The notes under the pieces were generated by a model. It did not search any database. It saw only the letters and a program-made list of their open reading frames with translations, and was not told the DNA's origin. Positions 2,082 through 37,357 of a stretch of 37,357 nt of DNA are shown here, piece after piece (position 1 is the first letter of the stretch; every line of letters starts with the position of its first letter). The position numbers and the translations under genes were made by a program. Source of the DNA: a virus; the IMG/VR virus record IMGVR_UViG_3300042876_000073, positions 1 to 37,357 of that record; one strand, given 5' to 3'.

Positions 2082-2090
2082 TGGTACAAT
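2082..2090 (+). promoter_or_regulatory. Extended -10 promoter (TGGTACAAT) before RNA leader copy A
   Basis: TG-G-TACAAT is a good extended -10 element, and the -35 region is weak. The predicted start falls about 7 nt downstream, just before the conserved GGCTAG of the leader at 2099. The same spacing (8 nt from -10 to GGCTAG) is seen at copy B on the other strand near 22.9 kb. It would drive the HNH-AP2 gene. Confidence 0.6.
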
Positions 2091-2098
2091 TTTTTTAT

Positions 2099-2157
2099 GG
2101 CTAGCCCGACGGGGCGAAAAGCGGACTGAATCCCCGCCTGCCATGTCCTTAGGATTC
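2099..2157 (+). ncRNA. Structured leader RNA, copy A
   Basis: A 59-nt element that begins at the predicted transcript start. Order: GGCUA; hairpin 1 GCCC-GACG-GGGC (2103-2114); GAAAAGCG; hairpin 2 GAAUCC/GGAUUC (2128-2133 with 2152-2157). The 18-nt loop of hairpin 2 contains CUGCCA and UCCUU. The same order with different stem sequences occurs at 22833-22889 and 29690-29764. The invariant GGC at the 5' end could pair with GCC in the loop as a pseudoknot. The UCCUU in the loop is complementary to a Shine-Dalgarno sequence. No known RNA family is recognised. Confidence 0.75.
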
Positions 2158-2173
2158 TCATGAAAGATTCATC

Positions 2174-2665
2174 ATGACCGATCAAGAACTGTACATCCGC
2201 GCCCACGAGTTTTTCACCTACAAAGACGGTGCTTTGTATTGGAAAATTGACAGAAAACATACGACGTGCAAAGTTGGAATGAGGGCTGGTGGCTTGTCAA
2301 AGTCAAGCATTTATCGCACTGTTTCCATTAACAACAAGCAGCGTTTGGAGCATCGCATCATCTTTTTGATGTGCAACGGCTATTTGCCTGAGATGATCGA
2401 CCACAAAAACGGCGACAAAACCGACAACAGAATTGAAAATCTCAGGGCTTCAGACAAGTATACAAATCAGCAAAATGTTGGCGCTTCAAAGTATGGATGC
2501 GGCTTAAAAGGCGCAAAACGCGACCGATCTCGCAACAAATGGGTGGCATCTATTCGCGTCAAAAAAACAAGGCTTTTCCTTGGTCGCTTTGATACAGCAG
2601 AAGAAGCCCACGAAGCGTACAAAGCCGCCGCAGTCAAATACCACGGCGAGTTTGCAAGGTTTTAA
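2174..2665 (+). CDS. HNH homing endonuclease with AP2 DNA-binding domain (163 aa)
   Basis: Freestanding mobile endonuclease. The HNH core lies at about residues 55-95 ([13 protein letters not shown], then [17 protein letters not shown]), the layout of the HNH_3 type. The C-terminal 50 residues form an AP2-like DNA-binding domain ([17 protein letters not shown]). It is on the plus strand against the surrounding late genes, is visibly AT-rich, and has its own promoter and structured leader, so it looks like a later insertion. The ATG at 2174 overlaps the stop of a five-codon leader reading frame as ATGA. The gene ends convergently in a 4-bp overlap with the gene at 2662-3027. Confidence 0.88.
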
Positions 2666-3124: not shown

Positions 3125-3397
3125 ATGAAATCACTTATCGCAGTCATTTTGTTGTCAGCAGGCATAGCAAACGCCCAATGCGTTTTCGTGCCCGGCAAAA
3201 TCAATTGTGTTGATCAAGATCAGCACGTCCGAGACTTTCAAGAGCGCCAGCGCCAGCAGCAACAAATCGAGCAAATGCAGCGGCAAATTGAGCAGCAGCG
3301 CAGGCTTAACGAAATGAACGCCCACCAAGCCCAACAACCGCCTGGTATGCGTCAGCAGTGTTTTGTCAACGTCTTTAACGTCATGGAATGCCGATAA
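3125..3397 (+). CDS. Exported Gln-rich small protein (90 aa)
   Basis: Begins with a signal peptide (MKSLIAVILLSAGIANAQ; probable cleavage after ANA). The mature part has two Cys near its start and two near its end (QCVFVPGKINC and QQCFVNVFNVMEC), separated by a Gln/Arg-rich helical stretch. Disulphide closure in the periplasm is plausible. The ATG at 3125 was chosen over an upstream in-frame start because of GGAG 7 nt before it and the clean signal peptide. Its TAA overlaps the ATG of the Rap1a-like gene (TAATG), so the two are probably translated and used together. The family is not known to me. Confidence 0.75.
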   Translation: MKSLIAVILLSAGIANAQCVFVPGKINCVDQDQHVRDFQERQRQQQQIEQMQRQIEQQRRLNEMNAHQAQQPPGMRQQCFVNVFNVMECR

Positions 3398-5294: not shown

Positions 5295-6511
5295 TATTGC
5301 CCCAATCGTTGACGAATTGCCGCTGCTCGTGGGTCACCTGGGTTTGCGTTAGCCCATTGCAGTGCCGCAGCATCTTGCGGGTTCATTGGCGGTTTGTTGG
5401 CTTGTGGGCCAGCATATCGCGCTTGAATTTCCTTGATGGTTTGCAGCGCCGCCTGTTTAGTCGCCACGGGAATTGTCGGATCTCCGATCTGACCAGCCAT
5501 TTGACGATACAGCTGCACGTCTTTGTCGGATTGCGGGCCGCTCATCTTGGGCATTTTGGAGACCAAATCACCTTCCAAGGCTTTAAGCTGGGCGGCGGCT
5601 TGTGCGCCAGGGGTGGACATACCAATCAATCGAGCGGCCTGATCTACACCAGCGCCAGCATAAGAGCTGGTTGACTTGGGGATGATCTTTTCTGCTTGCT
5701 GAATGGTTGCCAGTGCGGCATTTGCATCATTCAGACGCTGTTGAGCCTCAGGGGTTTTAACCCCGGAAATCGGCTGCCCAGTTGGCCCCATGATCGGCAT
5801 GGCCTGACCATTAACCAATTGCATTGGGCCGTTGTCCGTTTGGATAATCTGGGCTTGCCGCTCCGGTCGGTTGGCTGCATTCATTTGCGCCATCTGCACT
5901 TGGAAATCACGCTGAGCCTGCGCCATTTGTTGACGGGTAGCGTTTTGCTCTTGCATCATCTGCATACGTGCATCATGCTGCATTTTGAGCTGCTCCATCC
6001 GAGCTTGGCGGTTGGCTTCGGCTTCCTCGCGGCGGAAATCACGGGCAGCTAGTCGCTCCTCTTTTGCGGCTTCCAGTTGTGGCATCTGCGCAAGACCGCT
6101 CAGGCCAGCACTGCGCAAAGATGCATCCGGCGCGTTCAAAAGTGCCGTGTAAGCGTTACGCATGTTGCCCGGCTGGGCTGCGACTTGATACCCGCCCGAC
6201 TGGTCTTGACCTTCCGGCGCAGGGCCAGCGGCTTGGTATGCAGGTGCTCCGGCTGCTTCGGTTTGGAATCCCCTAAGCGCATCAGCGATAGCTTGTTTGC
6301 GTTGACCTTGCAAATCTTTCATTTGCTGTTCGGTCTGGTTCATGCCTTTGATAGAACCATACCCACGAAGGGCCGCAGCCACGTGTTGCAAAGGGTTTGC
6401 GCCTACGTATATATCGCCGATCATTTGCCCTCGCGGGGCTTCGTATTGCTGCCCTGCATATTGCTTGTAGCGGTTTTGCAGTAACTGCTGTTCCAAATCA
6501 AAATCAGTCAT
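5294..6511 (-). CDS. Probable ejection protein with long coiled coil (405 aa)
   Basis: Residues about 145-220 form a long Gln/Met/Arg-rich coiled coil (QMMQEQNATRQQMAQAQ). The rest is Ala/Gln-rich, and the C-terminus ends NPGDPRAAAIRQRLGQ, a tail I associate with phage ejection proteins. It starts within an ATGA overlap with the previous gene and ends within a TAATG overlap with the next, so the three ejection genes form a coupled block. The function is inferred from composition and position; no catalytic motif is visible. Confidence 0.62.
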   Translation of the reverse strand: MTDFDLEQQLLQNRYKQYAGQQYEAPRGQMIGDIYVGANPLQHVAAALRGYGSIKGMNQTEQQMKDLQGQRKQAIADALRGFQTEAAGAPAYQAAGPAPEGQDQSGGYQVAAQPGNMRNAYTALLNAPDASLRSAGLSGLAQMPQLEAAKEERLAARDFRREEAEANRQARMEQLKMQHDARMQMMQEQNATRQQMAQAQRDFQVQMAQMNAANRPERQAQIIQTDNGPMQLVNGQAMPIMGPTGQPISGVKTPEAQQRLNDANAALATIQQAEKIIPKSTSSYAGAGVDQAARLIGMSTPGAQAAAQLKALEGDLVSKMPKMSGPQSDKDVQLYRQMAGQIGDPTIPVATKQAALQTIKEIQARYAGPQANKPPMNPQDAAALQWANANPGDPRAAAIRQRLGQ

Positions 6512-20018: not shown

Positions 20019-22331
20019 TTAATCGGTAACTTCGATGGCGGCCACTGCTTTCCCGTTTGCGTCACGCTGAATGACCCTCTTTTTGGGGCGTTTCATTTCG
20101 TCAGCGGTCATCATCAAGACCTGAGCCATCTGACCCAGTTGATTGACAGCGTCAGCAATACCCGCGCCGTGGGCGTTGGTGACTTCTTTCAATGTGTCAG
20201 CAATACCGTCTAGCTTGCCTTCGGTGTCCATCTGGATCACGTTCTGGGGCTTTTCGGCTTGCTTGGCTTGCATGGCAGCGATTTGCAGCTTGGTCTCAGC
20301 ATCCAGTTGGGCACGATAAGCCTGGCGCTGGGTTTCAGCGTCTTGCTTCATGCGCTCGATTTCCAGAGCCTGCTGGGCCTTGAATTGCTCAATCTGGGCT
20401 TGTGCTTGCAGTTTGACCTGTTCGGCTTGCTGTGCGGCTTGGAGCTTAATTTGCTCCAGTTGCTGCTGTTGTGCGGCCATTTGCTGCTCTTGCTGCATCT
20501 TGGCCTGCTCCATCTGCTGCTGGGCCTGTGCCTTTAGCATTTCCGGGTTAGGTTGCTCAGGTTTGGGCTGCTTCATCTGCTCGATGGTGCTTTCGAGCGT
20601 GTTTTCCAGCGTTCTGCCGCCTTTGAACGTGCGCACCACAAACATGAGGGCCTCCCCAAGCAACGGCCCCATCTCGGGCGATTGCTGGATGACCGGGAGT
20701 GCATCGCGCATGGCCGACCCAAAAGCGGTCAGGAATTCCGTCCTGCTTTGTTTTTCGACCTGTTCGTCCATCTCGGCCAGGCTATCCGCTGCCACTTCAA
20801 TCCTGAAGTTACGCATCGGCTCGGACTTGAGCAGTTGAATGGCTTGCTCGGCATACATCGCATCGGGAGTTCCCTGAATGCCGGACATAGCGATAAGAGC
20901 TTGAGGGCTGTACAGGTCAGCCATTAGCTGAGCTTTGATCCGCAGCACATCCGAAGTGAACACGGCCACGGCGTGCTGCATATTCTTCAGGCGCATCGAT
21001 GCATATTGCCCTTTGATCTGCTGCGCCGTAGCGGTTTCCGAGGCCATGCTAGAACCGCGGATGATGTCAGACAGGCCGGTCACATCGTAGACCACCTGTT
21101 TGGCTTGCTCACGGGCTGCATAGCACTGATTCAGGGCTTGGATAACCTGATCCAGAGGCAGGAAGTCCACCGTCCCTTTAATGCCGCCCTTTTCAGAGAA
21201 TGCCGCCCATGTGTCCACGGGAATCAGGACGTTATCCACGCCTTCGTTGAGCATTCGCTGAATAGCCGGTTGGCTGGCGTCATAAACACCCACCACCTTG
21301 ATAGCATCAACCAAAAGACCAATACGCTTGGTCAGGTCGTCAATCTCATCGGCTTGGTCTTGATACAGAGCGTAATCAGGAACAGGGACAAGCGTGTCCG
21401 TGGTCTGAGTAGCGTAAAGGGGTTTCGGGCAAGGCCAGAAGTTGTCCAGACCGTAGGGGTCGGATTTGTGGTCGAGCATCTGGTCATAGCCTTCAGCCAC
21501 CCAATAGACGCATTCCGACGATTTGCACCAGATTTCCCAGACCTGAGCCTTTTTCAGCGCATCCATGTCGGATTGGCTGGCCCCTTGGGTTTTCATCTCG
21601 TCCAGACCGATAGGCTCGTGGGTCAGGGGCACTTTTTTGGCCGCATCCTCACCGAATCGGGCTTCGATCTCTGAGCGGGTCATATACACCCGACGGGCAA
21701 CCCATGTCACCTCATCCCAGCACCGAGCCGGGGAACACCGGAAGTCTTCCCAATAGACGTAATCCACCGGGGTGGTTTCGAGCTGCATCTCACCGACGCC
21801 GGTCGGCAGGCTCATTTGGTTTACGGGAGTTTCAGAGGATTCGGGGTCAGCCGTGTATTCTTCCTCGCCCTGCGGCTCAAAGGTCTCGATCTCTTTGGCC
21901 TCAAAGCGAACCCAGACCGTGCCGCGACCAGGTAAGAGGCGATCCAGCACGGCAGCGCGGGTAGCGTTCTCATAATCCCCGTAATGGTCAATCTCGTACT
22001 GAAGCGCACGCTCCAGAATGATCGCAGCTGTACGGCCAACGGGGTCTTGGTCTTTCCACCGACGCTCAACCTGTGCACGGGGTGTTTTCCCGTACAGGGC
22101 AGGCATCATGGTCTGGATATTCGACCAAAGGATGTTGTACCGCTTGTTGCCGTCATAAGACGATGAACGGTCATCCCGGTAGCGTTTAACGATCTTTTTT
22201 CCGCGCTTCGTCCATTTGTCGTCCTCTTTCTTGGCGAGGCGAAGTTCGTTAAGCCAAGAGGCTGCTGATTTGAGGCTTTTGTCTTTGTCCATATGCGGGC
22301 ACTTTTTCAAGTAAATTTCCGATATTTTCAC
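20019..22331 (-). CDS. Portal protein (770 aa)
   Basis: Head-to-tail connector through which DNA enters and leaves. The N-terminal third (YNILWSNIQTMMPALYGKTP, DPVGRTAAIILERALQY) and centre (YDVTGLSDIIRGSSMASETA) follow podovirus portal patterns. Residues about 590-700 are an extreme Gln-rich helix, as in portals with a long C-terminal barrel. The reading frame opens with a GTG at 22331 overlapping the HNH stop (GTGA). An ATG at 22292 (MDKDKSLKS) is an alternative start and may be the original one if the HNH gene was inserted here. It follows terminase and HNH and precedes the spike module. Confidence 0.88.
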   Translation of the reverse strand: MKISEIYLKKCPHMDKDKSLKSAASWLNELRLAKKEDDKWTKRGKKIVKRYRDDRSSSYDGNKRYNILWSNIQTMMPALYGKTPRAQVERRWKDQDPVGRTAAIILERALQYEIDHYGDYENATRAAVLDRLLPGRGTVWVRFEAKEIETFEPQGEEEYTADPESSETPVNQMSLPTGVGEMQLETTPVDYVYWEDFRCSPARCWDEVTWVARRVYMTRSEIEARFGEDAAKKVPLTHEPIGLDEMKTQGASQSDMDALKKAQVWEIWCKSSECVYWVAEGYDQMLDHKSDPYGLDNFWPCPKPLYATQTTDTLVPVPDYALYQDQADEIDDLTKRIGLLVDAIKVVGVYDASQPAIQRMLNEGVDNVLIPVDTWAAFSEKGGIKGTVDFLPLDQVIQALNQCYAAREQAKQVVYDVTGLSDIIRGSSMASETATAQQIKGQYASMRLKNMQHAVAVFTSDVLRIKAQLMADLYSPQALIAMSGIQGTPDAMYAEQAIQLLKSEPMRNFRIEVAADSLAEMDEQVEKQSRTEFLTAFGSAMRDALPVIQQSPEMGPLLGEALMFVVRTFKGGRTLENTLESTIEQMKQPKPEQPNPEMLKAQAQQQMEQAKMQQEQQMAAQQQQLEQIKLQAAQQAEQVKLQAQAQIEQFKAQQALEIERMKQDAETQRQAYRAQLDAETKLQIAAMQAKQAEKPQNVIQMDTEGKLDGIADTLKEVTNAHGAGIADAVNQLGQMAQVLMMTADEMKRPKKRVIQRDANGKAVAAIEVTD

Positions 22332-22813
22332 ATAAATTCTGAAAATTTATTGCTTTTTTTCCGGTTTTCCGCCCTTGTGATGACTTTTAAGTTGAACTCA
22401 TTGTGAAGGCCGCACACAACATGATTGCCATCCTCATCTACGCCTTTGAGTGGGACTATGTGATCTACGTTATAAGGTAGGCCCGTCCACTTTGTGATCG
22501 CAATACGGTTTGCATATATTTTTTCGCAAGCCTCCCTATTAGCCCACGAAACTGCCGCTGGACCCGCACGGCAGGCCGCACTTACGTTTTGTATTGATGG
22601 GGCATTTTTTTTGGAGTACGCAACAATTCTGTTTTGTACGCGAGTTTGTTCTCTATATTTTGCTTGTCGTCTTGCGGCGTTGGCTTTGTCTTGTTCTGTA
22701 AGTTGATTGACACATGTTTTGCATCGACTGCGAATTCCATCCTTCTTTCTAGTATCTTTATGGAATTCAGTAAACAGCTTTACACAGCCGCACTTAGCGC
22801 ATTGTTTTTGCAT
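22328..22813 (-). CDS. HNH homing endonuclease between terminase and portal (161 aa)
   Basis: N-terminal Cys zinc-binding segment (CAKCGCVKLFTEFHKDTRKK, then CKTC) followed by a C-terminal HNH core (YNVDHIVPLKGVDEDG, then HNEFNLKVITRAENRKKSN) with the DHIxPL, N and N-x-x-K positions of the fold. The start at 22813 (MQKQC) has AAGGAA 5-6 nt upstream; the longer frame upstream is the structured leader, not protein. The gene has its own promoter and leader RNA, overlaps the portal start by 4 bp and is AT-rich relative to its neighbours, as expected for a mobile endonuclease. Confidence 0.88.
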   Translation of the reverse strand: MQKQCAKCGCVKLFTEFHKDTRKKDGIRSRCKTCVNQLTEQDKANAARRQAKYREQTRVQNRIVAYSKKNAPSIQNVSAACRAGPAAVSWANREACEKIYANRIAITKWTGLPYNVDHIVPLKGVDEDGNHVVCGLHNEFNLKVITRAENRKKSNKFSEFM

Positions 22814-22832
22814 TTGATTTCCTTGGTCAAAT

Positions 22833-22889
22833 TTCCTATAAAAGTTGTGGCAGCTTGTAGGAATCAAGTTTTCGGGAGCTACCCTAGCC
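22833..22889 (-). ncRNA. Structured leader RNA, copy B
   Basis: A 57-nt element on the minus strand. Order: GGCUA (from 22889); hairpin 1 GGG-UAGCU-CCC; GAAAAC; hairpin 2 UUCCUA/UAGGAA with a 19-nt loop holding CUGCCA and ACUUUUA. It starts 8 nt after a perfect TATAAT. The stem sequences differ from copies A and C but remain paired, which is covariation. It leads the transcript that runs into the HNH and portal genes. Confidence 0.75.
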
Positions 22890-22897
22890 ACACACTA

Positions 22898-22903
22898 ATT
22901 ATA
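22898..22903 (-). promoter_or_regulatory. TATAAT promoter overlapping terminase stop codon
   Basis: A perfect -10 (TATAAT, minus strand) contains the TAA stop codon of the large terminase gene. No good -35 is visible at normal spacing; upstream reads CAAAAAGGTCTGATAGGA. The predicted start is about 7 nt on, at the GGCTAG of leader copy B. It would drive the HNH, portal and downstream structural genes independently of terminase. Confidence 0.6.
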
Positions 22904-28475: not shown

Positions 28476-28908
28476 CCTCTCGTGCAAATCGCAAAGAAAC
28501 AGCGTTAACGTGGCCGCCTGCGTTATGGTTGGCAATGATCGCCTTGGCCCATGCCTTGTGATCCCTGCCGGATTTTTGGGCTATCGCTTTTCTTGCCTCG
28601 CCAAGTTTTGCCAATTCTGCTTTCAGCCGCTCGGGGTTAGCCTTTGGCTCTGGCAAACGTGGGACTTCCTTTTCTGGTGCGCGGCGGCAAAGGTTGCGAA
28701 ACTCAATCACGTTCAGGCATCGCTCGGGCAAATTCTCAAGCCCCCAAGCCAATGCCTCTAGGTGGCCCTCAAAACCAGCCAATTCGTGCGCCCAGGCACT
28801 TTTAACGTCATTGATGGGCACATCTGCCCACTGGCGTGTCCAAGCGGCTCCATAGGTCGCAGAAAGGCGCTCAAAAAGACGGTCAATTGCTTTAACGGGC
28901 AAGCTCAT
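28465..28908 (-). CDS. Replication-region protein, P-like (147 aa)
   Basis: Begins MSLPVKAIDRLFERLSATYG, followed by WADVPINDVKSAWAHELAG and LENLPERCLNVIEFRNLCR. This is a pattern of phage proteins coupled to DUF1376 replication proteins, possibly a helicase-loader partner like lambda P by position. The C-terminal 50 residues are basic (AKLGEARKAIAQKSGRD). It overlaps the upstream gene by ATGA. Confidence 0.68.
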   Translation of the reverse strand: MSLPVKAIDRLFERLSATYGAAWTRQWADVPINDVKSAWAHELAGFEGHLEALAWGLENLPERCLNVIEFRNLCRRAPEKEVPRLPEPKANPERLKAELAKLGEARKAIAQKSGRDHKAWAKAIIANHNAGGHVNAVSLRFAREALG

Positions 28909-29678
28909 TTCTCAATCTCCAAAGTGGTCGGGGTTACGTCAATGAAATTGGGCTGGTCAGCTTCGGGCCATTTTCGGCCAGTCATCTCCTCCCAGCGTTT
29001 GCGCCGTGCCAGTTCATCCTGTTGGGCAAAGCTCATCGGCTGGTTTCGCGGCTTTGTGCCTTTGGGCGGCAAAACAGCGGCGATCCATTCAAGCGGCTGC
29101 AAAGGCTTGGCGCGGATGCACTCCCGCAAGGTGTTGACCAAGGCTTCGTCGCCGTGAGCCTTCCTCAGTCCACCAAGGAACGAACGGGCTTGCTTGTCAG
29201 GTGTGCCTGCATTGGTAAGCAAAGGAACCCCGTAACCAAAGATGATTTCGTCTGTCGTAAGCGGCGACCTGTCGCCCGTAGCTTTAGCTACGGAATTAAT
29301 TGGTTCATGGTTACTGGTTACTGGTTCATGGTTACTGGTTGGTTGAACGTCCGTTGAACGGGCGTTGCTCCTCCGTTCGGCAGATGCTTTACCGGCGCGT
29401 GACGCTTGCTCAATTTTTGAGTGGTAGTGAGCAATTTCTTTGTCTGCCCTTGGGTTAACAAAGCCAGCATCGGTGGAAATGAAGAACTCATTTAGCACCG
29501 TGAGAACGTCTTGCTCATGATCGCGCATACCAATCTGGCGAGCAATGTCTCGCTGCTTTATTGGCTGCTCATGAAGATAATAAAAATCCAATAGACGGCG
29601 AAATGCCAAATCTTCCATCAAAGAAAGATGCCTAGTGTGGGACATATAGTCCCCAATGTGGAAACCGTAATAGTGCAT
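28905..29678 (-). CDS. DUF1376-type replication protein (257 aa)
   Basis: Phage replication initiator-like protein. The N-terminal DUF1376 region runs from MHYYGFHIGDYMSHTRHLSL through LEDLAFRRLLDFYYLHEQPI and is a winged-helix-like domain. A low-complexity linker with a tandem SNHEP repeat follows (about 117-130), and the C-terminal half resembles primosome-type domains. The start at 29678 has AGGAAG 6 nt upstream; a TTG 15 nt earlier lacks support. The leader RNA copy C lies immediately upstream and could occlude this ribosome site. Confidence 0.78.
   Translation of the reverse strand: MHYYGFHIGDYMSHTRHLSLMEDLAFRRLLDFYYLHEQPIKQRDIARQIGMRDHEQDVLTVLNEFFISTDAGFVNPRADKEIAHYHSKIEQASRAGKASAERRSNARSTDVQPTSNHEPVTSNHEPINSVAKATGDRSPLTTDEIIFGYGVPLLTNAGTPDKQARSFLGGLRKAHGDEALVNTLRECIRAKPLQPLEWIAAVLPPKGTKPRNQPMSFAQQDELARRKRWEEMTGRKWPEADQPNFIDVTPTTLEIEK
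29301..29340. repeat. Tandem 19-bp repeat in the replication gene linker
   Basis: TGGTTCATGGTTACTGGTT occurs at 29301-29319 and again at 29322-29340 (period 21). In the protein it encodes the repeated SNHEP motif of the linker between the two domains. It keeps the frame, so repeat number could vary by slippage without breaking the gene. Confidence 0.9.
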
Positions 29679-29689
29679 CGCACTTCCTC

Positions 29690-29764
29690 GCAAACCCTCC
29701 AGAAGGAAACCAGCGGCAGGCGGGAGGTTCGCTTTTCGGTCTGCTCATGACTTCAGACCTAGCC
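29690..29764 (-). ncRNA. Structured leader RNA, copy C
   Basis: A 75-nt element on the minus strand. Order: GGCUA (from 29764); hairpin 1 GGUCUG/CAGACC with a 10-nt loop; GAAAA; hairpin 2 GCGAACCUCC paired with GGAGGGUUUGC (one bulge, one G-U) around a 22-nt loop carrying CUGCC and UUUCCUU. It ends just before the ribosome site AGGAAG (29683-29688) of the replication gene. The loop UUUCCUU could pair with that site in an alternative fold. Same order as copies A and B. Confidence 0.78.
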
Positions 29765-29776
29765 GGGTTTCGGATC

Positions 29777-29782
29777 ATTTTA
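29777..29782 (-). promoter_or_regulatory. TAAAAT promoter before leader RNA copy C
   Basis: A TAAAAT box on the minus strand immediately follows the stop codon of the 48-residue gene and precedes GGCTAG by 12 nt. The -35 is not obvious. By analogy with copies A and B it should start the replication-operon transcript at the leader RNA. Confidence 0.45.
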
Positions 29783-36160: not shown

Positions 36161-37003
36161 TTATAATTTTTTTGCGTACAGCCAGCTATAACCGTAAGCA
36201 GTTTTGATTTTGCCGCTTGCGGCTTGACATATTTTTGTATTTTGGGCTTTGGGATTTATTGATGATTGAACCCATCTAACCGCTTCTGAAACTGAATTAA
36301 AACTTTGCCCGGTTTCAACACATAAAACCGGTTTTGCTATGACTGCATTTATTGCGGCTCTAACTTTAGGATCAGTCGCCACTTTTCTTGCGCATTCCGC
36401 TCGCCTTTTGGCTTCTTCTGGTTGCTTCATCGCATGAATAGCGGCTTGCGTCATTTTTGTTTGATGGTCGCGGTCAAACAAAATTTTTGCCCTTTGCGAC
36501 ATTTGCAATCTTGCATCTGGGTTTTGCTCGTAATATAGCTTTAATTTTTTGGAAACGTCATTCCTTGCATCGTTGCTGTTCATTCTTTTTTTGGCCGCAA
36601 CGGACATTTTTTGACGAATTTCGGGTTTACTGACTGCTTCAATAATTTTTTGTCTATGCTTTTCAGCGGTCTGTTTTGAGTACCCAGACCCAGTATCGCC
36701 ACCCATCAAAAGGTTGTAGCCATTGGGATGAAGTGTCTCGTTAAACTCAATTAGTGTGCGTTCAGCCCTAAAACAAATAGCTTGGCTGTTGATGCCCGAT
36801 GCCTCAAAAATCACCTGATGTTTAAAATTTTCAGCGCCGTGCTTGCGTATTGCACGATGAAAAGCCAATTCACTACCGCGCTTTGCTGCAAGCTGGTGAT
36901 GCTGCCATCGTCTTTGTGGGTCTACCGAAACGCCAATGTACGACCTGCCGGTGGGAGAGGTCGCCATGTAAACAAAGCAAGATTGATGTTTGACAGCACG
37001 CAT
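36161..37003 (-). CDS. GIY-YIG homing endonuclease (280 aa)
   Basis: Mobile endonuclease. The GIY-YIG domain begins CFVYMATSPTGRSYIGVSVD (first and second signature strands), with catalytic Arg in PQRRWQHH and Glu in FRAERTLIEF. The following basic helices (residues 120-230) hold NUMOD-type DNA-binding repeats, and the end IKTAYGYSWLYAKK is the usual NUMOD tail. AT-rich relative to its neighbours. It interrupts the lysis region between the lipoprotein and the membrane-protein gene. Confidence 0.87.
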   Translation of the reverse strand: MRAVKHQSCFVYMATSPTGRSYIGVSVDPQRRWQHHQLAAKRGSELAFHRAIRKHGAENFKHQVIFEASGINSQAICFRAERTLIEFNETLHPNGYNLLMGGDTGSGYSKQTAEKHRQKIIEAVSKPEIRQKMSVAAKKRMNSNDARNDVSKKLKLYYEQNPDARLQMSQRAKILFDRDHQTKMTQAAIHAMKQPEEAKRRAECARKVATDPKVRAAINAVIAKPVLCVETGQSFNSVSEAVRWVQSSINPKAQNTKICQAASGKIKTAYGYSWLYAKKL

Positions 37004-37011
37004 AACAGTGC

Positions 37012-37357
37012 TTATTTTAAATGCGAACCGTCGGGGTCTAGCGGATCGAGCAAAGGCTCAAAGAATTTCACCACAGCCAGCCTCCAGCGTCCCAAATAGC
37101 TGCCGTCAGATTCACGATTGTGGCGTTTAAGCCGCGCAGTTACGGTGTACTCCCGGGGGAATTCAAGGAGGATAAACGTAACCACAAACCAGTTCACAAT
37201 GACATCCAAAACGATGCCAATAAATAGAGTTGGATAGCCTAAGACTTTTCCTAGTGTGTTCAGCTTACCCATGTCACGAACACGCTTGATGTTCATGACT
37301 GCGGCGTAGAACACGAAAAGCCCGTAGGTTAGGCCTAGGGCGAGCAGGATGGCATTA
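37012..37357 (-). CDS. Small phage membrane protein, main part (start at 132 across the join)
   Basis: A two-helix membrane protein of 116 residues. The first span is near the N-terminus, encoded around the circular junction, and the second is GYPTLFIGIVLDVIVNWFVV. A conserved LLEFPREYTVTARLKRHNRE follows, with a basic helix and the end LLDPLDPDGSHLK. This pattern is familiar from phages of Burkholderiales, without a proven role; a lysis or membrane function fits its place next to the lysis genes. It starts at GTG 132, so complement(37012..37230,1..132). Confidence 0.78.
   Translation of the reverse strand, partial: NAILLALGLTYGLFVFYAAVMNIKRVRDMGKLNTLGKVLGYPTLFIGIVLDVIVNWFVVTFILLEFPREYTVTARLKRHNRESDGSYLGRWRLAVVKFFEPLLDPLDPDGSHLK
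37231..37357. repeat. Terminal direct repeat, right copy
   Basis: Identical to 1-127. See the left copy: the unit genome is 37,230 bp, and the 127-bp length suggests assembly overlap. Confidence 0.95.

Follow-up and report, generated by a model that had tools for sequence, protein, structure and literature searches.

int-alpA-family RNAs in a phage genome as probable cis-acting translational switches

Phages and prophages commonly carry RNAs of the orphan family int-alpA, and these RNAs, with which a short mRNA leader begins, probably act in cis as bistable translational switches. Sequence comparison among relatives brings out the fold, the joints, the co-variation of one loop with two downstream sites and the position of the element, and it is this architecture that points to a switch. 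The two-site loop rule and a palindromic-loop rule for hairpin 1 turn an orphan 'sRNA' into a concrete model that is open to a few point mutations. As far as we searched the literature, the founding paper being outside that search, neither the switch model nor the palindrome rule has been described; pairing with the tail may appear in the founding paper.

Three int-alpA-type RNAs in one phage genome

The window, meaning the whole stretch of DNA analysed, comprises 37,357 nt (positions 1 to 37,357 of IMG/VR record IMGVR_UViG_3300042876_000073). Its ends form a 127-nt direct terminal repeat (1-127 = 37231-37357), which makes it likely that the record represents a whole phage genome, circular or terminally redundant. 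Three copies of the RNA were located:

2095-2146, plus strand: copy A, int-alpA-type RNA (Rfam RF02996, 39.4 bits; R1 E = 3.8e-12; R2 E = 1.2e-9)
22845-22893, minus strand: copy B, int-alpA-type RNA (R1 E = 5.2e-10; R2 E = 1.3e-8)
29711-29768, minus strand: copy C, int-alpA-type RNA (Rfam RF02996, 38.1 bits; R1 E = 8.2e-12; R2 E = 4.5e-7)

All three are members of int-alpA, a known orphan family, with B as a divergent relative. The Rfam matches span 2097-2144 (+) for copy A and 29695-29769 (−) for copy C, both above the RF02996 gathering score of 35.8 bits, which is also exceeded in 16 of 20 other sources carrying elements identified in this analysis; a reading of the sequence without database searches (the sequence-only reading) had known of no named family that fits, and these matches supply one. 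Copy B gave no Rfam match at E ≤ 1 in the Rfam scan despite having the same layout as A and C. We class it as a divergent relative because it is found, despite missing the Rfam cut-off, both by R1 and by R2, a covariance model built from 30 relatives from other records with zero window sequence. R2 picks out exactly three places in the window, copies A, B and C (next best E 0.4), and all three share the CUAG, CGAAAA and CUG three-way junction of int-alpA.

The family reportedly originates with Weinberg et al. 2017. Its name presumably derives from the int/alpA context of E. coli satellites, where the RNA lies behind an integrase gene and ends ~25 nt before the next start codon, that of an alpA-like HTH gene. 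The window copies instead precede HNH, endonuclease VII-like and DUF1376 genes, the name-giving location being non-defining. Rfam catalogues the family without a function, under the type line 'Gene; sRNA', and the literature searched contained a single passing mention, in a table of putative small RNAs of E. coli published in 2025.

int-alpA RNAs are present in sequenced phages of Enterobacter, Salmonella, Klebsiella, Edwardsiella, Pantoea and Vibrio. In two proteobacterial orders sampled with R1, the RNA was found in 21 of 399 genomes (~5%; order of an Acidovorax genome) and in 6 of 395 (~1.5%; order of an Enterobacter genome). Among 5426 E. coli genomes, one blastn query detected it in at least 199 and a second query in 50. 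Against phages, copy A as a blastn query returned no useful match, and a relative from another phage used as query did return matches. A 6.3-kb contig of a Brocadiia MAG, which by label falls outside Proteobacteria, holds three int-alpA-type elements (817-869, 3186-3239 and 5626-5677).

Fold, leader position and downstream genes

The RNA folds as a three-way junction of an outer stem, hairpin 1 and hairpin 2, linked by the near-invariant joints CUA, GAAAA and CUG. In the window, its parts are:

2097-2100/2141-2144, plus strand: copy A outer stem
2101-2103, plus strand: copy A joint CUA
2104-2115, plus strand: copy A hairpin 1 (GACG loop 2108-2111)
2116-2120, plus strand: copy A joint GAAAA
2121-2137, plus strand: copy A hairpin 2
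2138-2140, plus strand: copy A joint CUG
22874-22884, minus strand: copy B hairpin 1, GGGUAGCUCCC, following outer stem UGUGG/CCACA and CUA and followed by GAAAA
22854-22868, minus strand: copy B hairpin 2, CUUGAUUCCUACAAG, followed by CUG
29738-29759, minus strand: copy C hairpin 1 (palindrome UCAUGA 29745-29750), following the outer stem and CUA and followed by GAAAA
29720-29732, minus strand: copy C hairpin 2, followed by CUG

Viral contigs were scanned with CTAG-gap-CGAAAAGCG-gap-CGCCTG and with a version without GCG, each giving at least 120 matches; in bacterial genomes, many exact-pattern matches were rejected by the covariance model and regarded as chance occurrences. Among 88 aligned sequences, the outer stem, hairpin 1 and hairpin 2 all co-vary, with a covariation score of 0.565 against 0.151 ± 0.011 in shuffles and 0.08-0.13 in slid versions. 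Double-changed cells numbered 317 versus 116, double changes not having been required by the selection; paired cells reached 82% versus 59% when shuffled, although pairing percentages in alignment A1 are partly by construction, and inflated, because its members were filtered for stems of ≥3 bp. The joints were assessed in 43 members aligned by covariance model, themselves mostly selected by such a model from genomes: CUA is present in 43 of 43, as are the U and G of CUG, and GAAAA is altered in three, as single exceptions. Hairpin 2 is closed by GCGG/CCGC in copy A, CUUG/CAAG in B and GCG/CGC in C. Minimum-free-energy folding recovers the three helices in A and B but favours a nested alternative in C, which counts against the proposed fold there; nested folding has no means of scoring a pseudoknot. 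The observation behind the sequence-only reading, a covarying leader RNA in three copies, is thereby confirmed: R2 finds all three copies, and covariation in a larger alignment exceeds that in shuffles. Its interpretation is partly supported. The pairing of the 5′ GGC with GCC that it had suggested is right and corresponds to the outer stem.

The promoter-like boxes and downstream genes of the three copies are as follows:

2085-2090, plus strand: −10-like box of copy A, TACAAT, read from the sequence
22898-22903, minus strand: −10-like box of copy B, TATAAT, read from the sequence
29777-29782, minus strand: −10-like box of copy C, TAAAAT, read from the sequence
2174-2665, plus strand: copy A gene, HNH endonuclease with AP2-like DNA-binding domain (Pfam HNH_3 1.7e-13, AP2 1.9e-7; phrog_99 3.5e-53)
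22328-22813, minus strand: copy B gene, endonuclease VII/HNH-like protein (phrog_1035 endonuclease VII, 6e-13)
28905-29678, minus strand: copy C gene, DUF1376 protein, PHROG primosomal-type (Pfam DUF1376 3.5e-19)

Each box stands 8-12 nt before GGCTA, as had been noted from the sequence. Across 158 relatives, −10-like hexamers are over-represented in the interval 16-21 nt before CUA, by as much as ~tenfold, a value reached at −20; transcription should therefore start at the outer stem, so that the RNA begins the transcript. Of 222 elements, 211 are followed within 90 nt by the start of an ORF of at least 50 codons (median distance 38 nt).

The genes behind the element are diverse. Those of 151 elements fall into 74 clusters, the largest of which, with 52 elements, is DUF1376, a relative of which matches primosomal PHROGs. 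When 28 other cluster representatives were scanned singly against PHROGs, 11 matched HNH, endonuclease VII, homing or resolvase-type nucleases, and the remainder matched a Rha-type regulator, a primase-like protein or a methyltransferase, or were unknown. In the window, the copy B gene sits between the terminase large subunit and a portal-like gene, and the segment 22328-24254, combining copy B, the endonuclease VII-like gene and its own promoter, resembles a free-standing homing-endonuclease-like cassette. A GIY-YIG endonuclease-like gene (36164-37003; Pfam 4.9e-6) has no int-alpA copy upstream.

One loop and two alternative downstream sites

In viral relatives, the hairpin-2 loop is complementary to two tandem downstream sites and co-varies with both. 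The segments concerned in the window are:

2128-2133, plus strand: copy A loop segment GAAUCC, pairing with site 1
2127-2132, plus strand: copy A loop segment UGAAUC, pairing with site 2
2152-2157, plus strand: copy A site 1 (putative decoy), GGAUUC, overlapping the AGGA Shine-Dalgarno of a five-codon ORF at 2160-2177
2166-2171, plus strand: copy A site 2, GAUUCA, immediately 5′ of the start codon at 2174
22833-22838, minus strand: copy B site 1, UAGGAA, pairing with loop UUCCUA
22817-22824, minus strand: copy B site 2, AAGGAAAU, Shine-Dalgarno region, pairing with loop UUCCU
29693-29700, minus strand: copy C site 1, GGAGGGUU, pairing with loop AACCUCC (GGAGG contiguous)
29683-29689, minus strand: copy C site 2, GAGGAAG, Shine-Dalgarno region

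For 116 de-duplicated elements whose start codon is clear, the profile of loop-to-tail complementarity is bimodal: one peak lies near −21 and the other near −10 relative to the start codon, and the median spacing is 13 nt. Of these elements, 85% contain two disjoint sites matched over at least 4 bp, versus 28 ± 4% with loops swapped between elements, and 58% versus 5% contain two of at least 5 bp; ~10-15% of elements have no second site of at least 4 bp. Swap counts, like the palindrome counts given below, were redone per protein cluster or per distinct loop to lower relatedness. With one element per downstream-protein cluster (n = 62), the values were 90% versus 29% at ≥4 bp and 61% versus 5% at ≥5 bp; among DUF1376 leaders with distinct loops (n = 39), they were 90% versus 34% and 64% versus 9%.

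The duplexes of the loop with site 1 and with site 2 differ in calculated energy by a mean of 0.13 kcal/mol (bare values that leave out loop and geometry costs), whereas the 16S anti-Shine-Dalgarno favours site 2 (−7.0 versus −4.3 kcal/mol for site 1). Because the loop is thus about isoenergetic with both sites while the anti-Shine-Dalgarno prefers the downstream one, we take site 2 as the ribosome-binding site, with site 1 serving as a decoy. When bound to site 2, the hairpin-2 loop would hide the ribosome-binding site and block initiation (OFF); when bound to the decoy, it would leave the ribosome-binding site free (ON); and an input recognised by the conserved junction, by hairpin-1 pairing or by both would tip the balance. 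In the window phage, the genes under such a switch would be those of two HNH-type endonucleases and a DUF1376 gene of primosomal type. As a Shine-Dalgarno sequence, site 2 of copy A is poor. The five-codon ORF there (ATGAAAGATTCATCATGA, 2160-2177) has its own AGGA and ends in a stop codon that overlaps the HNH-AP2 start; this may couple translation, in copy A only.

Hairpin 1, GAAAA and the complementarities GAAUCC/GGAUUC, UUCCUA/UAGGAA and AACCUCC/GGAGGGUU were all recognised in the sequence-only reading and are all present. It had, however, taken the last three for a nested second stem of the main fold. Co-variation of hairpin 2 and of the outer stem speaks against this, and the pairing of the hairpin-2 loop with a downstream site is better read as an alternative state or, if all helices coexist, a pseudoknot. 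Among the roles that the sequence-only reading listed, translational control fares best, given the co-variation of the hairpin-2 loop with both the Shine-Dalgarno region and the upstream decoy. The Rfam description of int-alpA already has the three-way junction and the letters CUAG/CGAAAA/CUG, its cmscan structure line being without the hairpin-2 loop/tail pairing; our analysis adds the two-site pseudoknot and a palindromic hairpin-1 loop.

Structures that sequester the ribosome-binding site are known for the homing endonucleases I-TevI, SegB and MobE of T4 and Aeh1 (PMC2988022), which likewise involve phage HNH or GIY-YIG endonuclease genes whose Shine-Dalgarno is masked by upstream RNA (PMC2988022). 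Those masks are simple hairpins on read-through early transcripts, escaped via an internal late promoter, whereas the window RNAs lie directly behind their own promoter and have a conserved junction and a decoy site; their −10-like box is upstream of the entire element rather than internal as in T4.

Hairpin-1 loops and competing readings

What the input would be depends on how the junction and hairpin 1 are read. A riboswitch-like leader, with the CUA/GAAAA/CUG junction as the binding pocket for a small molecule or protein, the two-site loop as expression platform and hairpin 1 in a purely tertiary structural role, is possible, if on the doubtful side. It would suit joints that are near-invariant in members selected by covariance model while every stem varies, and a gene leader that combines a conserved core with alternative pairing at the Shine-Dalgarno, as in Shine-Dalgarno-occluding riboswitches; a pseudoknot over the Shine-Dalgarno is the expression platform of preQ1 riboswitches (PMC11625349). 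The int-alpA-type RNAs differ from these in their unrelated junction letters and two alternative targets, and their downstream genes (DUF1376, HNH, GIY-YIG, Rha, tail proteins, aminotransferase) are unrelated and so lack a metabolite theme; palindromic hairpin-1 loops would also go unexplained. That the element is a trans-acting small RNA, as the Rfam type line has it, is quite unlikely for all its compactness and own promoter: an ORF start nearly always follows 25-50 nt downstream, the same short distance to the next start codon recurs in the E. coli satellites, and, since the loop tracks the sites downstream of it and fits its own Shine-Dalgarno region far better than other elements' loops do, we reject a trans-acting main role. 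The arrangement thus does not support the 'sRNA' type, and the comparative evidence favours a cis leader. Less probable still are put-like antitermination, attenuation or a self-cleaving ribozyme, the first and last of which the sequence-only reading had also listed. A T-rich run often follows the outer stem, but such runs are not universal (L009, L011 and L036 are without one), and the co-varying partners lie at the ribosome-binding site rather than at a terminator; in Rfam, the window elements matched no put RNA and no family other than int-alpA. In topology, the joint order CUA-stem-GAAAA-stem-CUG matches a type I hammerhead, a candidate that we rejected: the alignments contain no CUGAUGA core, no Rfam hammerhead match was obtained, and the joint is CUA throughout the 43 aligned members.

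As an addition to the bistable switch rather than its opposite, two leaders might kiss through a palindromic hairpin-1 loop, the monomer or dimer state selecting the downstream site and being set by leader concentration, hence by gene or phage copy number; we regard this as rather unlikely. Its main attraction is the loops themselves. Palindromes of at least 4 nt occur in 53 of 75 distinct hairpin-1 loops, versus 21.3 ± 3.6 in shuffles, and of at least 6 nt in 20 versus 2.6 expected, with at least nine different tetramers represented, whereas in the control hairpin-2 loops they are rarer than chance (11 of 161 versus 23 expected). In long hairpins, the self-complementary columns co-vary (AU/CG/GC), with 27 double-changed cells versus 8.9 and none of 500 shuffles equalling the score. 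Unbiased scans with fixed frames and open loop letters returned CATG/AATT in 90 of 90 matches, AGCT/AATT/CATG in 69 of 85 (the remainder TGCT), TAGCT in 63 of 91, with variants that retain a central GC, AU or GU, and GACG in 54 of 55. GACG, the commonest non-palindromic loop and that of copy A, is a tetraloop that takes part in retroviral loop-loop dimer contacts (PMC5874298). Two near-identical paralogues in a Mailhella genome (L406 and L407, each at 301-364) differ mainly in their palindromic hexamer, UCGCGA versus UAGCUA. Homodimerisation by kissing would be the simplest reading of palindromic or GACG loops, yet we put only limited trust in it because of exceptions among the five-nucleotide loops, where only the central GC/AU/GU is constant (UAGCA, UCGCU and UAGCC are seen), and because a kiss of 2-4 bp is weak at mRNA concentrations. 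The outer pair is also broken in UUGCU-type long loops, and loops of relatives are non-independent events.

A still more speculative and improbable elaboration would make int-alpA RNAs dimerising translational switches in which kissing through private palindromic loops toggles the hairpin-2 loop between Shine-Dalgarno and decoy, each gene sensing the concentration of its own message, and thereby the stage of infection or the copy number; the loops of co-resident copies would often differ. If the dimer reading were true, the element would be an mRNA leader of an unusual kind, one able to gauge its own concentration. Kissing through palindromic or GACG loops is known from retroviral dimerisation (DIS, GACG tetraloops; PMC5874298); among phage and bacterial RNAs, OLE, ROOL and GOLLD are homo-oligomeric, and self-assembly through kissing loops is described for phage-encoded RNAs (PMC12286853). 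Compared with these, int-alpA-type RNAs are far smaller and form an mRNA leader, and their dimerisation is a prediction from sequence. Among multi-copy genomes, inspected by eye and small in number, hairpin-1 loops mostly differ between copies and are identical in two genomes.
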